Shown here one piece after another: positions 31,028-51,030 of a DNA stretch of 51,352 nt. Position 1 is the stretch's first letter. Every line of letters begins with the position of its first letter. Made by a program: the position numbers and the translations under genes. The notes beneath the pieces are model-generated. The model was not told where the DNA came from. It saw only the letters and a list, made by a program, of their open reading frames with translations, and made no database searches. Source of the stretch: an uncultured Granulosicoccaceae bacterium. GTDB taxonomy: Bacteria > Pseudomonadota > Gammaproteobacteria > Granulosicoccales > Granulosicoccaceae. Location: NCBI GenBank assembly GCA_937922945.1, contig CAKZUP010000140.1, positions 1 to 51,352 of the forward strand, written 5' to 3'.

Positions 31028-32437
31028 GTGAAAACTATGACATTTGGAATCGTGGTTGGCAGCCGCGGTTTTTTTCCTGGTCATCTTGCGGCAACCGGTC
31101 GCGAACACATGATTCAGGCCATTGAGAAAGCTGGGCATAAATGTGTCGTACTCGATACTGAAGCAACAGAACATGGTGCTGTGCAGTCCTACGAAGACGC
31201 CAAGAAATGCGCTGATCTTTTCAAACGGCACGCTGATGAAATCGATGGCATAGTCGTTACGCTGCCAAACTTTGGTGAAGAGCGACCCATAGCCGACACA
31301 CTTCGTATGTCGAAATTAAATGTACCCACGTTAATACAGGCAACGCCAGATGAACCCGAGAAAATGTCCATTAAATGGCGGCGCGATAGCTTCTGCGGGA
31401 AGATGTCGGCCTGTAATAATCTACGACAATACGGTATTTCCTATTCGCTGACCGACTCGCACTGTGTGGATCCGCTAAGCGAGGAGTTTCAGAGCGACTT
31501 ACAAAGGTTTGCTGCAACTTGTCGTATCGTCGGCGGTTTACAAGGTTTGCGCATCGGTGCAATTGGCGCAAGACCTGAAGCTTTTAATACGGTTCGCTAT
31601 AGCGAGAAAATTCTCGAAGCGGCAGGCATTTCAGTTGTAACACTCGATCTCTCAGAAATTTTGGGTCGCGTGTCGCGGCTCGATGACAGTGCGCCGGTTG
31701 TCAAAGAGAAGATTGAGGCAATAAAAAACTATATATCGATTACTGACGTGCCTCATCCATCAATTATTAAGCAGGCCAAGCTTGCGGCTGTTACTGAAGA
31801 ATGGATGAAAGAGGTGGATGTTACTGTAAGCGCCATTCAATGCTGGACATCCATGGAAGAAAACTATGGCGTAGTGCCTTGCACAATGATGAGCATGATG
31901 AGTTCAAATTTAATGTCGAGCGCATGTGAAGTCGATGTGTGTGGGCTTATCAGTATGCACATGTTAGCGCTAGCATCTGAAACACCTAGCGCTTTGCTGG
32001 ACTGGAATAATAATTACGGAAAGAACGCTAATAAAGCAGTTTGTTTTCATTGCAGCAATCTTCCGAAAGAATTTTTCAGCGAATACAAAATGGATTTTCA
32101 GGAAATCATTGCGGGCACTGTTGGCAAGGAAAATACCTACGGCACAATCGACGGCAGTATTAAAGCCGGTGATATGACCTACATTCGCGTAAGCACCGAC
32201 GATACATCGGGCCGTGTTTGTGGATACATAGGAGAAGGCAAGTTTACTGAAGATCCATTAGATACATTCGGTGGTGCAGGCGTTGTAGAGATTCCTAACA
32301 TGCAACAGCTATTACGCTACATTTGTGAAAATGGCTTTGAACATCATGTTGCAGCTAATTTTTCCTCCGTGGGAGATTCTGTCATAGATGCATGTAAAAA
32401 CTACCTGGGTTGGGAGATGTACCAGCATAGCGACTAA
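31028..32437 (+). CDS. L-fucose/L-arabinose isomerase-like protein
   Basis: The protein has 469 residues. The N-terminal Rossmann-like domain begins TFGIVVGSRGFFPGHLA. The central domain carries GVVPCTMMSMMSS after SMEEN and then ACEVDVCGLISMHMLALAS. The Glu and Asp of these two segments correspond to the metal-binding Glu/Asp pair of fucose isomerases, and EHHVA near the C-terminus may supply the His. Members interconvert aldoses and ketoses, but many homologues in marine bacteria are uncharacterised. The GTG at 31028 is chosen for GGAG 11 bases ahead; the ATG at 31037 is an alternative. The next gene encodes an aldose 1-epimerase, which supports a role in sugar catabolism. Confidence 0.78.
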   Translation: MKTMTFGIVVGSRGFFPGHLAATGREHMIQAIEKAGHKCVVLDTEATEHGAVQSYEDAKKCADLFKRHADEIDGIVVTLPNFGEERPIADTLRMSKLNVPTLIQATPDEPEKMSIKWRRDSFCGKMSACNNLRQYGISYSLTDSHCVDPLSEEFQSDLQRFAATCRIVGGLQGLRIGAIGARPEAFNTVRYSEKILEAAGISVVTLDLSEILGRVSRLDDSAPVVKEKIEAIKNYISITDVPHPSIIKQAKLAAVTEEWMKEVDVTVSAIQCWTSMEENYGVVPCTMMSMMSSNLMSSACEVDVCGLISMHMLALASETPSALLDWNNNYGKNANKAVCFHCSNLPKEFFSEYKMDFQEIIAGTVGKENTYGTIDGSIKAGDMTYIRVSTDDTSGRVCGYIGEGKFTEDPLDTFGGAGVVEIPNMQQLLRYICENGFEHHVAANFSSVGDSVIDACKNYLGWEMYQHSD

Positions 32438-47199: not shown

Positions 47200-47865
47200 T
47201 CATGGCAGGTTGCGCAGATGATCGGTCTTAACCCACACACAAGCACCCTCCGGTCCGGATGTTGCCGCCAACTTGCTGCCAACGGGCATGCGCAACCAAG
47301 ATTGGGTTCTTAGTGTGTCTCCGCCTTGTTCAAATCCGCCTTCAAGGACAAACACCTCAGCGCCGCCAGACGAGTCGATATCGATGGTTGCACCGGGCTC
47401 CCATCGTTCAAAACGCACATTCTCCCGATCGTCTTTGTACAGAGGCGATACAGTTACTCCGGGGCGGCCCTGTTCAGCCACTGCGCCTAGCTTGTGCCTA
47501 TTCGCATGGATGTAGGTCCTGTCATCGGGATCAAACTGCCAAAGTTTGACAAAAATTGTACAGCCGAGCTTTGAACCGGGTGTGTGCCTCGATTGCGGCG
47601 GATTGCGTATATAAGAGCCAGCTGGCCAATCACCGTATTCATCTTCAAAAACGCCTTCTAAAACAATAAACTCCTCGCCACCGGTGTGAACATGAGGAGA
47701 AAACTGACTTTCTGGGGCATATCGCACGATTGTCGTCACTCGTTCGTTTTCAGTATCGACTCGATCAAGCCTGCGCCGGGTCACGCCCTTCATTGGCGAG
47801 TCTTCCCAGGCAATGGAATCGCCGTGCATGACAACGCGCTTCGTAAAATCAGCATTTACATCCAT
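47200..47865 (-). CDS. ChrR-like bicupin protein
   Basis: The protein has 221 residues. Two cupin units follow each other. The first has a metal-binding pattern (SPHVHTGGEEFIVLEG, with His, His, Glu, and a later His in PPQSRHTPGS). The second (GATIDIDSSGGAEVFVLEGG) lacks the His pair, so only the first is likely to bind metal. Such cupins occur as ChrR-type anti-sigma or dioxygenase-like proteins, but no sigma factor is adjacent and no zinc-binding N-terminal domain is visible. The start at 47865 has AGGAGG 8 bases ahead; a longer frame to 47907 lies over the promoter. It is controlled by an operator in its promoter (47910-47938). Confidence 0.8.
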   Translation of the reverse strand: MDVNADFTKRVVMHGDSIAWEDSPMKGVTRRRLDRVDTENERVTTIVRYAPESQFSPHVHTGGEEFIVLEGVFEDEYGDWPAGSYIRNPPQSRHTPGSKLGCTIFVKLWQFDPDDRTYIHANRHKLGAVAEQGRPGVTVSPLYKDDRENVRFERWEPGATIDIDSSGGAEVFVLEGGFEQGGDTLRTQSWLRMPVGSKLAATSGPEGACVWVKTDHLRNLP

Positions 47866-47909: not shown

Positions 47910-47938
47910 AATATATCTATCAATAGGTAGATTGTCAA
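47910..47938 (-). promoter_or_regulatory. Cupin-gene promoter with TetR-type operator A in the spacer
   Basis: Read on the minus strand, TTGACA (47938-47933) is followed by exactly 17 bases and TATATT (47915-47910). The spacer contains CTACC-TATT-GATAG (47930-47917), a one-mismatch copy of the CTATC-N4-GATAG palindrome. An operator between -35 and -10 is the usual way a TetR repressor blocks polymerase. Confidence 0.85.
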
Positions 47939-48136
47939 CAACCGATTATGTTTCGTGAGAATTCTATCAGCTTGCCGCTGCTCGTTCAGCGGCTGAGACC
48001 GTGCAATTTATGTTATCCGTATCGAAACATCATTTTATTTGCAATGCTGCTTGATCGCTCGGTGAAAGCAGTTTGAAAAAAGCCGCAAATGTTTGATTGC
48101 TTGGTCGAACAGTAGGCATGATGCACGGCTTAATAC

Positions 48137-48167
48137 CTATCTATTGATAGAGATTTCGTATTATAAT
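48137..48167 (+). promoter_or_regulatory. tetR promoter with operator B
   Basis: Operator CTATC-TATT-GATAG (48137-48150) is a perfect inverted repeat. TATAAT stands at 48162-48167. No good -35 is present at the standard distance, and the operator occupies that place. This suggests autoregulation of tetR. Confidence 0.75.
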
Positions 48168-48188
48168 GTACCGCCAGCCCCAGCTGCT

Positions 48189-48305
48189 ATGAGTAGAGCC
48201 GGCACGTTGGCTAGATCGGCAACATCAATCTCTTTGCAAAGGCAATTTGCAAAGGCAATTTGCAAAGGCAACTTGAAAAGGCAACTTGTAAAGGCAATAC
48301 AATGA
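48189..48305 (+). CDS. Possible 38-residue leader peptide overlapping tetR
   Basis: The frame starts at the ATG at 48189 about 20 bases after the predicted transcription start and ends in a TGA at 48303-48305, which overlaps the tetR ATG (ATGA). The second half of the peptide is encoded by the 13-bp repeats. A ribosome-binding site before 48189 is not evident. If translated, it could couple to tetR, and any change in copy number of the 13-bp unit would shift its frame. The coding status is uncertain. Confidence 0.3.
   Translation: MSRAGTLARSATSISLQRQFAKAICKGNLKRQLVKAIQ
48233..48297 (+). repeat. 13-bp tandem repeat, five copies, each with an AAAGG core
   Basis: The unit (T/C)TTG(C)AAAGGCAA occurs at 48233, 48246, 48259, 48272 and 48285. 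Copies 1-3 are identical; copies 4 and 5 begin CTTG and differ at one or two bases. The AAAGG of the last copy (48290-48294) stands 7 bases before the tetR ATG and is its likely ribosome-binding site, so the repeat multiplies the ribosome-binding element. Confidence 0.92.
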
Positions 48306-48856
48306 AAGGCAATCGGGAAAAACTAGAAGAAAACGCGTTGAATGCTGTTCAAGTTGGCGGGCTTAAATCGATCAGCTTCAGAACTATGGCAGAGGAAATT
48401 GGCATAAAGTCTTCCAGCGTACACTATCATTTTCCTGACAAATCGGACTTGGCTCGCACCCTCATAGAACGCTACAGCGAAGAATTTTTTCGTGCGCTCA
48501 AAGACATCAGTAACAAGCGCTGGAAGTTGCGTAGCAAAATCAAAGCGTTCATCGAAATATTCGAAAGTGTTGCTGAAGCAAACAAACTTTGTTTATGCGG
48601 CATGTTGGCCGCAGAAGTAGAGCAGCTTGATCAAAGTAACCGTGCTCTGCTGTCTGAATATTTTATAGACACCGAAAAATGGATTGTGCAGTTACTCAAT
48701 GAGCATCCAGACGAAATAATTTCTGATATCAGCCCCACTGCATTAGCCAGAAGCTTACTCTCGGGGCTGGAAGGTGCGCTGCTGCTCGATCGTGTTGTAG
48801 GTGACAGGCAACGGTTAAAAGCTCAAAAAGAGTTGTATATGAGCTACTTTTCTTAG
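48302..48856 (+). CDS. TetR/AcrR-family transcriptional repressor
   Basis: The protein has 184 residues. The N-terminal helix-turn-helix reads GGLKSISFRTMAEEIGIKSS followed by SVHYHFPDKSDLARTL, the typical TetR DNA-binding domain. The helical C-terminal domain contains several Cys (LCLCGMLAAEVEQL) and would bind a ligand or sense an oxidant. The ATG at 48302 has AAAGG 7 bases ahead. A longer frame beginning at 48260 falls in the repeats. Palindromic operators CTATC-N4-GATAG occur before this gene, the divergent cupin gene and the SDR gene downstream, so it is predicted to repress all three including itself. Confidence 0.9.
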   Translation: MKGNREKLEENALNAVQVGGLKSISFRTMAEEIGIKSSSVHYHFPDKSDLARTLIERYSEEFFRALKDISNKRWKLRSKIKAFIEIFESVAEANKLCLCGMLAAEVEQLDQSNRALLSEYFIDTEKWIVQLLNEHPDEIISDISPTALARSLLSGLEGALLLDRVVGDRQRLKAQKELYMSYFS

Positions 48857-48909
48857 CTTAGACAATTTCCAAGGGCGCAGCCTTGCTCAATATGCCCTCC
48901 TGATTAAAT

Positions 48910-48971
48910 CTATCTATCGATAGCTGTTGACAAGTCCGAAAGCGAACTATAATATACCTATCACTAGATAG
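48910..48971 (+). promoter_or_regulatory. SDR-transcript promoter flanked by operators C and D
   Basis: Operator C CTATC-TATC-GATAG (48910-48923), then TTGACA (48927-48932), a 15-base spacer and TATAAT (48948-48953), then operator D CTATC-ACTA-GATAG (48958-48971). Both hexamers are perfect, but the spacer is shorter than 17. The two operators are centred 48 bp apart and bracket the promoter, which would allow a repression complex. Confidence 0.85.
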
Positions 48972-49064
48972 ATAGTAAAGCTTGCTGAATTATTTAAGCT
49001 TAACTAACACGCGCGCATGTTGCCCGATAGCGCCAAAAAAGGGGGTTATGATTGCATGCACGAA

Positions 49065-49197
49065 TGGCGGTTCTCTTTATCGTTAAAGGTCTGCCGCCAC
49101 GGGTTCAGCTAGATATACACTTATTGTCCTTATCTTTTTAGTATAGCCGCCTGGTGTTCAGGCGGATTCGTTCAGGTGCTTGTGCACCTTTTTATTA
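49065..49197 (+). promoter_or_regulatory. Structured leader with intrinsic terminator upstream of the SDR gene
   Basis: Hairpin 1 pairs TGGCGG (49065-49070) with CCGCCA (49094-49099), with a nested CTTTA-TCGT-TAAAG stem. Hairpin 2 pairs CCGCCTG (49147-49153) with CAGGCGG (49159-49165). Hairpin 3 pairs AGGTGC (49174-49179) with GCACCT (49184-49189) and is followed by a T-run, which is an intrinsic terminator. GGCGG and CCGCC blocks of hairpins 1 and 2 are interchangeable, so alternative folds are possible. It lies between promoter C/D and the SDR start, about 48960 to 49196. Confidence 0.6.
49174..49197 (+). terminator. Intrinsic terminator within the SDR leader
   Basis: A six-base-pair stem (AGGTGC with GCACCT, loop TTGT) is followed by TTTTATTA. 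The terminator is short but fits. It ends transcription before the SDR gene unless bypassed. Confidence 0.7.
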
Positions 49198-49199
49198 CG

Positions 49200-49229
49200 T
49201 TGAATAAACTATCTACTGATAGGTATATA
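49200..49229 (+). promoter_or_regulatory. Operator E between possible -35 and -10 elements next to the SDR start
   Basis: TTGAAT (49200-49205) and TATATA (49224-49229) are 18 bases apart, and the perfect operator CTATC-TACT-GATAG (49209-49222) fills the spacer. A transcript starting here would begin only a few bases before the SDR start codon. The operator may therefore repress a proximal promoter or act as a roadblock to transcription from promoter C/D. Confidence 0.55.
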
Positions 49230-49243
49230 ACAGAGGCATGAAT

Positions 49244-50014
49244 ATGAACAACAATACACAAACAGCATTGCTACTTGGCGGCTCGAAAGGCATGGCACTG
49301 GATTCAGCCAAGAGGCTTGCCCGCCGCGGCGTTCATTTGATACTGGTGGCTCGCGATCAGGCGGACTTGGATGAGGCCAAGTCTTCGATTCAGGGCGAAT
49401 CCAATGTAGAGGTCGAAACACTTTCGATTGATCTGTACAACCGGAACGCGGTGGAGGGCCTGGTCGCCCGCATCGACGATGATCAGCGACGTATTAACTA
49501 CCTGATCAACGCGGCTGGGTACTTCAAACCCACGACGTTTCTTGACCACACTCGCGATGACTACAAGGCGCAAATGGATTTGAATGAGGCCACATTTTTT
49601 GTGACGCAGGCCGTAGCGAGAAACATGAAGGCCAATGGCGGAGGAGCGATTGTCAACATCGGTTCCATGTGGGCTAAGCAAGCGGTCAAGGCCACACCAT
49701 CATCGGCGTATTCTATGGCCAAAGCCGGGTTGCATGCACTAACACAACATCTAGCGATGGAATTGGCGGATGACAATATCCGCGTAAATGCAGTTTCTCC
49801 TGCGGTGGTGCTAACCACGATTTATAAATCCTTTATAGAAACCGACGAGATACCGAACACGTTGGCAGGATTTGACAGCTTTCATCCTATAGGTCGTATT
49901 GGTCAACCTCACGATGTATCAGCGGTAATCGATTTCTTGCTTTCTGATGAATCAAGTTGGGTAACCGGCGCTATTTGGGATGTGGACGGCGGAGTAATCG
50001 CCGGCCGTAACTAA
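49244..50014 (+). CDS. Short-chain dehydrogenase/reductase (SDR)
   Basis: This is an NAD(P)H-dependent oxidoreductase of 256 residues. Cofactor motif [18 protein letters not shown] is a variant of the TGxxxGxG loop. NAAGYF is the second motif, the catalytic Ser lies in [10 protein letters not shown], and Tyr and Lys in [13 protein letters not shown]. The C-terminus ends [12 protein letters not shown]. The ATG at 49244 has GAGG 7 bases ahead; the ATG at 49238 is too close to it. It is followed after 77 bp by the alpha/beta hydrolase. Regulation by the TetR operators and by the terminator in its leader is predicted. The substrate is unknown. Confidence 0.9.
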
Positions 50015-50091: not shown

Positions 50092-51030
50092 ATGAGGCGT
50101 TTTATTTCATCAATCGTTTTTACAGCGTTAATCGCGACAGGTTTGACAGCGCAGGCGGATTCAACCGCAGTGCGTTACGGAACTGAGGCCGTTGACAATA
50201 TTGAGGTATTCTATCGAGAGGCAGGCGACCCGCAAAAACAAGCAGTTGTTCTGTTACACGGATTTCCCAGCTCATCTCACATGTATCGAGATGTACTGTC
50301 CTCGCTCGGTGACGAGTACTACCTGATTGCGCCAGACTATCCTGGCTTTGGGGACAGTAGCTTTCCCAGCACGGATGAGTATGACTACACGTTTGATAAC
50401 CTGGCTGATACGATCGATCAGTTTCTTAGCCAGCGAGACGTCAACGATTATGTGTTGATGATTCACGACTACGGCGCCCCCGTTGGCTTTCGTATCGCAG
50501 TTAAGAACCCCGAAAAGGTAAAGGGTTTTGTTGTGATGAACGGCAACGCCTATGCTGAGGGCTTATCACCGGAAGCTTGGGCGCCAATCCAGAAATACTG
50601 GGAAAACAAAGACAATCCAAAGCTGGAGCAAACGATCATAGATAACGTTTTTTCAGACGGTGGATTCCAGTGGCAGTACACGCACGGCACGCGCAATCCT
50701 GCGGGGATATTGCCGGATAACTGGAATTTAGATATCCAGAAGTTTTCGCGTCCGGGCCAACACCGAATGCAGCTTGACCTGTTCTTCGATTATCAAAGTA
50801 ACGTAGAACAGTATCCTGCATGGCAGGAATTCCTGCGCGAATACCAGCCACCTATGTTGTTGGTTTGGGGCAAAAACGATGCGTTTTTTCCGGTCAATGG
50901 CGCTGAAGCCTACAAGCGTGATGTCAAAGAGATCGATTTCAACATTCTGGATACAGGACATTTTGCACTGGAGGAAGAAGGTGAGTTTATCGTCTCGAAA
51001 ATGCGCCAGTTTCTGGGTACGCTGCGATAA
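50092..51030 (+). CDS. Exported alpha/beta hydrolase, epoxide-hydrolase/haloalkane-dehalogenase-like
   Basis: The protein has 312 residues with a signal peptide (SIVFTALIATGLTAQA, cleavage near residue 22), so it is periplasmic. Motifs: LLHGFPSSSHMYRD (oxyanion region), PDYPGFGDS, the nucleophile elbow MIHDYGAPVGFR where Asp replaces the usual Ser, WGKNDAFFP (acid) and DTGHFALEE (His). An Asp nucleophile indicates cleavage of an epoxide or carbon-halogen bond through an ester intermediate, rather than esterase activity. The ATG follows GGGAGA. Co-directional with the SDR gene, it probably belongs to the same detoxification unit. Confidence 0.88.
   Translation: MRRFISSIVFTALIATGLTAQADSTAVRYGTEAVDNIEVFYREAGDPQKQAVVLLHGFPSSSHMYRDVLSSLGDEYYLIAPDYPGFGDSSFPSTDEYDYTFDNLADTIDQFLSQRDVNDYVLMIHDYGAPVGFRIAVKNPEKVKGFVVMNGNAYAEGLSPEAWAPIQKYWENKDNPKLEQTIIDNVFSDGGFQWQYTHGTRNPAGILPDNWNLDIQKFSRPGQHRMQLDLFFDYQSNVEQYPAWQEFLREYQPPMLLVWGKNDAFFPVNGAEAYKRDVKEIDFNILDTGHFALEEEGEFIVSKMRQFLGTLR

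Follow-up and report, generated by a model that had tools for sequence, protein, structure and literature searches.

A five-copy operator predicted for an uncharacterised TetR-family repressor and its cupin and dehydrogenase neighbours in a Granulosicoccaceae bacterium

Which regulator, and which genes, does a palindrome serve that recurs five times within 1.3 kb? This question is raised by a 51,352-nucleotide stretch of DNA from an uncultured marine Granulosicoccaceae bacterium (contig CAKZUP010000140.1; hereafter the window), in which the gene of a TetR-family protein stands between a divergent cupin gene and a short-chain dehydrogenase (SDR) gene, the latter followed by an alpha/beta-hydrolase gene. 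The reading that we favour, with a probability of about 0.88, is that the protein would be an autoregulated local repressor which, through five operators, represses the cupin gene, its own gene and the SDR gene, perhaps together with the hydrolase gene, and is released by a small molecule. The evidence presented below supports the view that the sites are operators of this adjacent, uncharacterised TetR protein and define its local regulon. The sites, all located by pattern match and matrix, and the regulator gene are as follows.

47917 to 47930, no strand assigned: predicted operator site A, one mismatch to CTATC-N4-GATAG
48137 to 48150, no strand assigned: predicted operator site B, over the weak -35 of the tetR promoter
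48910 to 48923, no strand assigned: predicted operator site C, just upstream of a -35
48958 to 48971, no strand assigned: predicted operator site D, just downstream of a -10
49209 to 49222, no strand assigned: predicted operator site E
48302 to 48856, plus strand: tetR gene, 184 amino acids, LmrA/YxaF/AcuR/NemR-like branch of the TetR family (profile searches, alignment)

An earlier reading of the letters alone (the sequence-only reading) had described four perfect copies and one near-perfect copy of CTATC-N4-GATAG, and pattern matching returned all five at the same positions: sites B, C, D and E were free of mismatches, and site A was the single-mismatch copy CTATCAATAGGTAG. In the whole assembly (5,036,416 bases, 225 contigs, 94% complete), the exact pattern occurred at four places, every one in this 1.3 kb, and a reversed-pattern control occurred at three; the random genome-wide spread named beforehand as evidence against an operator was thus not observed. 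The 817 bases of intergenic DNA by tetR held four exact copies, compared with a mean of 0.0006 and a maximum of one in 5000 dinucleotide shuffles. An origin of the sites by chance, or as an element repeated in the genome, would fit the behaviour of looser forms, since at two mismatches the motif was enriched neither in the window (17 matches with up to two mismatches, 12.8 expected) nor in the genome. This explanation is, however, highly improbable in view of the absence of exact copies elsewhere in the assembly, the shuffle average, and the conservation of the sites beside orthologues in two families. Since allowing up to two mismatches brings no enrichment, only the tight form of the motif is informative.

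A refined word, CTATCTANTGATAG, was found at seven places in the genome with at most one mismatch, five of them being sites A–E; the other two (contigs C4 and C136) scored 3.3 and 11.4 on a 22-bp matrix, compared with 22.2–28.6 for sites A–E. At two mismatches this word was at background (61 rows in the genome, 79 for the control). Under a matrix trained on other genomes only, sites A–E were the top five of the window. Outside the CTATC and GATAG arms, a TA 3' of the left arm and an RTA 3' of the right arm were conserved. The consensus is thus asymmetric, and the predicted operator is best written as CTATCTA-N-Y-GATAG, followed by the RTA. A further dyad, TAYCTA-N4-TAGRTA, lies over CTATC-N4-GATAG with a shift of 2 bp, and either of the two may mark the true centre. 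DNA looping was also considered from the A–B distance of 220 bp (20.95 turns of 10.5 bp) and the D–E distance of 251 bp (23.9 turns), and such calculated spacings count as no evidence for it.

Is the word kept where the regulator is kept? At E ≤ 1e-15, matches to the TetR query were obtained in 28 of 95 genomes, its own included, and loci were examined in 18 genomes, namely the 15 best other genomes and three (G098, G236 and G340) from a class sample of 369 genomes, of which four, again including its own, hold a TetR orthologue at E ≤ 1e-30. The orthologues of the 18 genomes were 46–63% identical to the TetR of the window. Each tetR ± 1.5 kb was scored with a leave-one-genome-out 22-bp matrix against 200 shuffles per genome; this matrix was seeded by the motif of the sequence-only reading, hence the shuffles carry the test. 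A site exceeded all 200 shuffles in 13 of the 18 genomes, with scores of 25.6–32.4 in G020, G015, G047, G044, G032, G029, G038, G023, G039, G340, G098 and G236, and a weak site in G009 (16.2; best shuffle, 15.1). No site above the shuffles was found within 1.5 kb of tetR in the remaining five; four of these (G007, G024, G012 and G018) form one clade (support 89/86), and in G026 a site lies 4.7 kb away. A cupin gene adjoins tetR in 12 of the 18 genomes (G020, G015, G047, G009, G044, G032, G029, G038, G039, G340, G098 and G236), with 47% identity in G047, 44% in G009 and truncation by a contig end in G044. All 12 tetR–cupin genomes carry a site, that of G009 being the weak one, and among the six cupin-less genomes only G023 does. 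The motif is therefore kept beside orthologous tetR–cupin pairs, contrary to the lack of conservation that had been named beforehand as evidence against the reading, and the comparison indicates that tetR plus cupin is the recurrent core of the predicted regulon. At two loci, the tetR–cupin pair has another TetR-like frame directly beside it, a more distant one (E about 1e-9; L136:4530-5150 and L137:5592-6188).

Searches with the motif alone were also performed. In the class sample, ATCTATC-N4-GATAGAT was found at eight places in seven genomes, two at tetR–cupin pairs and six without a TetR-profile match nearby. The word CTATCTANYGATAG was searched in G040 and in 17 of the orthologue genomes (all but G236), 18 in total, and gave 19 matches, compared with three for the control, in 10 genomes. 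Fourteen matches precede tetR, cupin, glyoxalase-like, glutathione S-transferase (GST) or amine-oxidase genes, two of them representing one G044 locus on overlapping contig ends; four lie within other reading frames (G098:C69, G040:C171, G044:C71 and G044:C63:18222), and one (G026:C203) is 118 bp upstream of a further gene. In 30 genomes of the family that lack an orthologue, the same word was near background (11 matches, eight for the control): six were at regulon-type genes (two each in G033 and G011, one each in G043 and at G027:C86), one (G027:C40) preceded a GST-type gene by about 490 bp, and the other four were elsewhere.

With regard to gene content, tblastn with the L104 glyoxalase-like protein as query found relatives of 47–83% identity in L103, L106, L120, L134, L136, L137, L170, L171, L172 and L181; the Pfam Glyoxalase profile exceeded its cut-off for L104 and L120, fell just short of it for L181, and gave no match in L103, L134 and L171. 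A GST gene lies beside the cupin gene in L101, L110, L112 and L129, and a flavin adenine dinucleotide (FAD) amine-oxidase gene was present in L110, L111, L129, L166, L171 and L175, as well as in L108, there without a nearby site. Locus L171 also holds an SDR and an AhpD/CMD protein, and its segment 1578-6922 is compact, with the amine oxidase, SDR, cupin, AhpD/CMD and glyoxalase-like genes, a TetR of 30% identity and two operator sites separated by 432 bp. In other species, genes for glyoxalase-like proteins, GSTs and FAD amine oxidases are thus putative further targets.

These results bear on whether the sites belong to another regulator, of which the adjacent TetR would be just one target. 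In G040 and G043, sites precede GST-cupin and amine-oxidase genes (L129:4700-7390 and L175:4395-5556) with no TetR orthologue detected at E ≤ 1e-15, which may reflect either an assembly gap or orphan targets; both are drafts, 94% and 87% complete. Moreover, sites in G027 and G033 stand beside TetR proteins merely 35% and 30% identical to that of the window, yet these still match the same profile. An autoregulated TetR protein commonly has palindromic sites in the promoter of its own gene, and in the class sample a site accompanies TetR in all three non-own genomes that have it. Taken together, a different owner of the sites appears improbable, and we retain the adjacent TetR as their predicted regulator.

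How would binding at these sites act on transcription? The promoter-like elements around them are as follows.

47910 to 47938, minus strand: cupin promoter TTGACA-17-TATATT with site A in its spacer (promoter scan)
48162 to 48167, plus strand: TATAAT, likely -10 of tetR (sequence)
48927 to 48955, plus strand: promoter-like TTGACA-17-TAATAT between C and D (promoter scan)
49200 to 49229, plus strand: possible second SDR promoter TTGAAT-18-TATATA with E in its spacer (weak match, by eye)

The number of promoter-like matches (four; shuffle mean, 3.1) was not above chance. The placements given in the sequence-only reading were reproduced: site A lies wholly within the 17-bp TTGACA/TATATT spacer on the minus strand, site B overlaps a weak -35 (TCTATT) that is followed by a 16-bp spacer and TATAAT, C and D flank TTGACA-17-TAATAT, and the SDR ATG is 15 bp beyond the end of E. 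A site-in-spacer layout recurs before the G011 cupin gene (L172:19, TTGACA-17-TATATT) and is also found at L171:3694, L166:4264 and L172:2042, with spacers of 16–17 bp. Since site A is between the cupin -35 and -10, blocking of RNA polymerase would be the natural mechanism. Steric repression and autoregulation are established practice among TetR proteins, and we infer binding and steric repression with autoregulation here on that precedent. Specifically, a TetR dimer would bind CTATCTA-N-Y-GATAG at five places and silence three transcription units. Site A, within the -35/-10 spacer, would serve to repress the divergent cupin gene, and site B, covering the -35 region, tetR itself; C and D, on either side of a promoter, and E, just before the SDR gene, would act on that gene and perhaps on the hydrolase gene behind it. 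Site C immediately precedes the -35 of the C/D promoter, a position that would also suit an activator or dual regulator activating the SDR promoter through C; such a role is nonetheless very unlikely, as A is placed within the spacer of a core promoter, B covers a -35 and D the region of the likely start, all of them positions that block polymerase.

The protein bears a helix-turn-helix domain and, in its structural model, the TetR fold, and the palindromic operators in its own and neighbouring promoters are in line with membership of that family. All 21 aligned relatives retain cysteine C97, which is a candidate sensor residue. The proposed targets in the window are as follows.

47200 to 47865, minus strand: cupin gene, 221 amino acids, two cupin domains, Cupin_7/ChrR-like (profile and structure-database searches, alignment)
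49238 to 50014, plus strand: SDR gene, 258 amino acids, probable local target (profile and orthologue searches)
50092 to 51030, plus strand: alpha/beta-hydrolase gene, 312 amino acids, resembling haloalkane dehalogenases as well as the Cif-like epoxide hydrolase 7jqz

The cupin matches Cupin_7 at E 1.2e-40, and its residues H58, H60, E64, E65 and H94 (the HxH, EE and H of the N-terminal cupin), by which metal would be bound, were invariant in 13 of 13 aligned cupins. The sequence-only reading had listed a ChrR-like cupin, an SDR and probably an epoxide-hydrolase-like enzyme as targets, and each was borne out in part. The first is indeed a cupin with a site in its promoter, but a stand-alone two-cupin protein rather than a ChrR anti-sigma factor. 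The SDR is supported locally, although it is no regular neighbour of orthologous TetR elsewhere. The hydrolase does resemble Cif-like epoxide hydrolases, but has no operator site of its own; it starts 77 bp after the SDR gene, with which it possibly forms an operon, and was not found beside SDR orthologues in other genomes. A glyoxalase-like gene was absent from the window by the same tblastn search that found one in 11 of 34 other loci, and the genome itself gave no match in a search that lacked a positive control.

The cross-species gene content, together with the SDR and hydrolase of the window, suggests the handling of reactive small molecules, and we infer a small regulon of detoxification type. 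The inducer would most likely be a reactive electrophile on which these enzymes act, such as an epoxide, an aldehyde or a quinone; it would act on the C-terminal domain of the repressor, so that TetR is released and the enzymes are induced, much as with NemR or CifR, whose circuits are the nearest working models. NemR is linked to electrophiles and glyoxalase (PMC5297802), and CifR to epoxides and Cif. Compared with the nemRA-gloA operon of Escherichia coli, no NemA-like reductase was among the scanned neighbours (nemA itself was not searched for), and no counterpart of gloA was seen in the searches just described. In contrast to CifR-Cif and Cfl2R-Cfl2, the hydrolase sits behind the SDR gene, and the likeness is one of layout, not of kinship, because many TetR-fold proteins score alike.

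Other known systems were compared with the locus. The half-sites CTATC and GATAG are letter-identical to those of the Tn10 tet operator. Insertion of a single base into the tetO1 and tetO2 cores gives sites B and D, tetO1 being the tet-operator core that follows TTGACA. The tetO2 of Tn10 is printed as TCCCTATCAGTGATAGAGA in PMC11686294, and in a tetR construct the other core stands directly after TTGACA (PMC7542709), a placement relative to TTGACA that site A shares. However, the tetO spacer is 3 bp, compared with 4 bp at all five window sites; similarity to tetracycline-repressor chains was weak and N-terminal only (E about 6e-4); and Tn10-type TetR has a divergent efflux gene, whereas the neighbours here are cupin, SDR and hydrolase genes, none of them for efflux. 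A Tn10-type tetracycline repressor was therefore rejected on spacer and neighbours. The best NCBIfam match was AcuR of Rhodobacter sphaeroides (48.4 bits; cut-off, 247), whose operator, TAATAGAC-n6-GTCTATTA, overlaps the promoter and whose inducer relieves repression (PMC3017554); with a match so far below cut-off and an operator different in letters and spacing, an acrylate regulon was discarded. Neither acuI nor dddL was identified here. For QdoR (YxaF)/LmrA of Bacillus subtilis, TetR_C_13_2 scored 21.5 bits, below its cut-off of 27, in keeping with distant kinship only, and the cupin of the window is of the Cupin_7/ChrR-like kind. ChrR shares the Cupin_7 domain, and the sole PDB match was 3o14, labelled anti-ECF sigma factor ChrR (258 bits), but TIGR02451 matched the cupin part only (25 bits; cut-off, 124.5), and a ChrR anti-sigma system was rejected. 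In the literature searched, no paper was found on TetR family together with cupin, glyoxalase, operator and GST, nor any match to literal forms of the motif; for ChrR, cupin, TetR family and short-chain dehydrogenase, no match was evidently on this system, as judged from listings.

SDR orthologues at E ≤ 1e-50 were found in eight of 56 other genomes (49–62% identity), and in five of these (G012, G015, G018, G023 and G024) a TetR of a sister clade, 27–28% identical to that of the window, adjoins the SDR gene. At these five loci (L186–L190), CCTAC-N6-GTAGG with at most one mismatch was found at four places in four loci, and at two in G015. No such site was found at the three closest SDRs (G034, G048 and G004), and a TetR-like frame lies in the vicinity of just one of them, G048 (E 3e-6); the window holds one match, at 32177, far from the tetR–cupin–SDR genes. 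The sister TetR was absent from the genome of the window at E ≤ 1e-10, G023 serving as positive control. As the SDR gene would here be under the CTATC code with no sister TetR in the genome, it may have been passed from one code to another. A broader scenario is tentative and on balance doubtful: CTATCTA-N-Y-GATAG would be common to TetRs of 30–35% identity (G033 and G027) and tie together a cupin–glyoxalase–GST–amine-oxidase regulon, the SDR would have been handed over between paralogous repressors, and the code would converge on the tetO half-site with one additional spacer base.

Proposed from DNA alone, a precise predicted operator and a target list are gained for an unstudied TetR clade. 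As a search word, the operator would bring together, as one regulon, the genes for cupins, glyoxalase-like proteins, GSTs and amine oxidases in little-known marine gammaproteobacteria, and the tetO-like half-sites with a longer spacer, together with the other word of the sister clade, would offer a natural test set for change in TetR DNA specificity.

The leaders of the SDR and tetR genes showed further features. About 280 bp (48956-49237) separate the C/D promoter from the SDR start, and a short terminator-like hairpin at 49174-49189 was not above shuffle expectation. A known RNA was dismissed, as the single sub-threshold Rfam match in the intergenic DNA (E 1.1) was taken as chance, and the 231-bp D–E leader was set aside as neither repeated nor conserved, matching, among 57 genomes, only itself and one 27-bp segment in G057. 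The C/D promoter might make a short RNA, with E controlling a second promoter. The tetR leader holds, at 48233-48298, five 13-bp tandem repeats (TTTGCAAAGGCAA) that end 3 bp before the start codon, and the AAAGG in each repeat unit resembles a ribosome-binding site.
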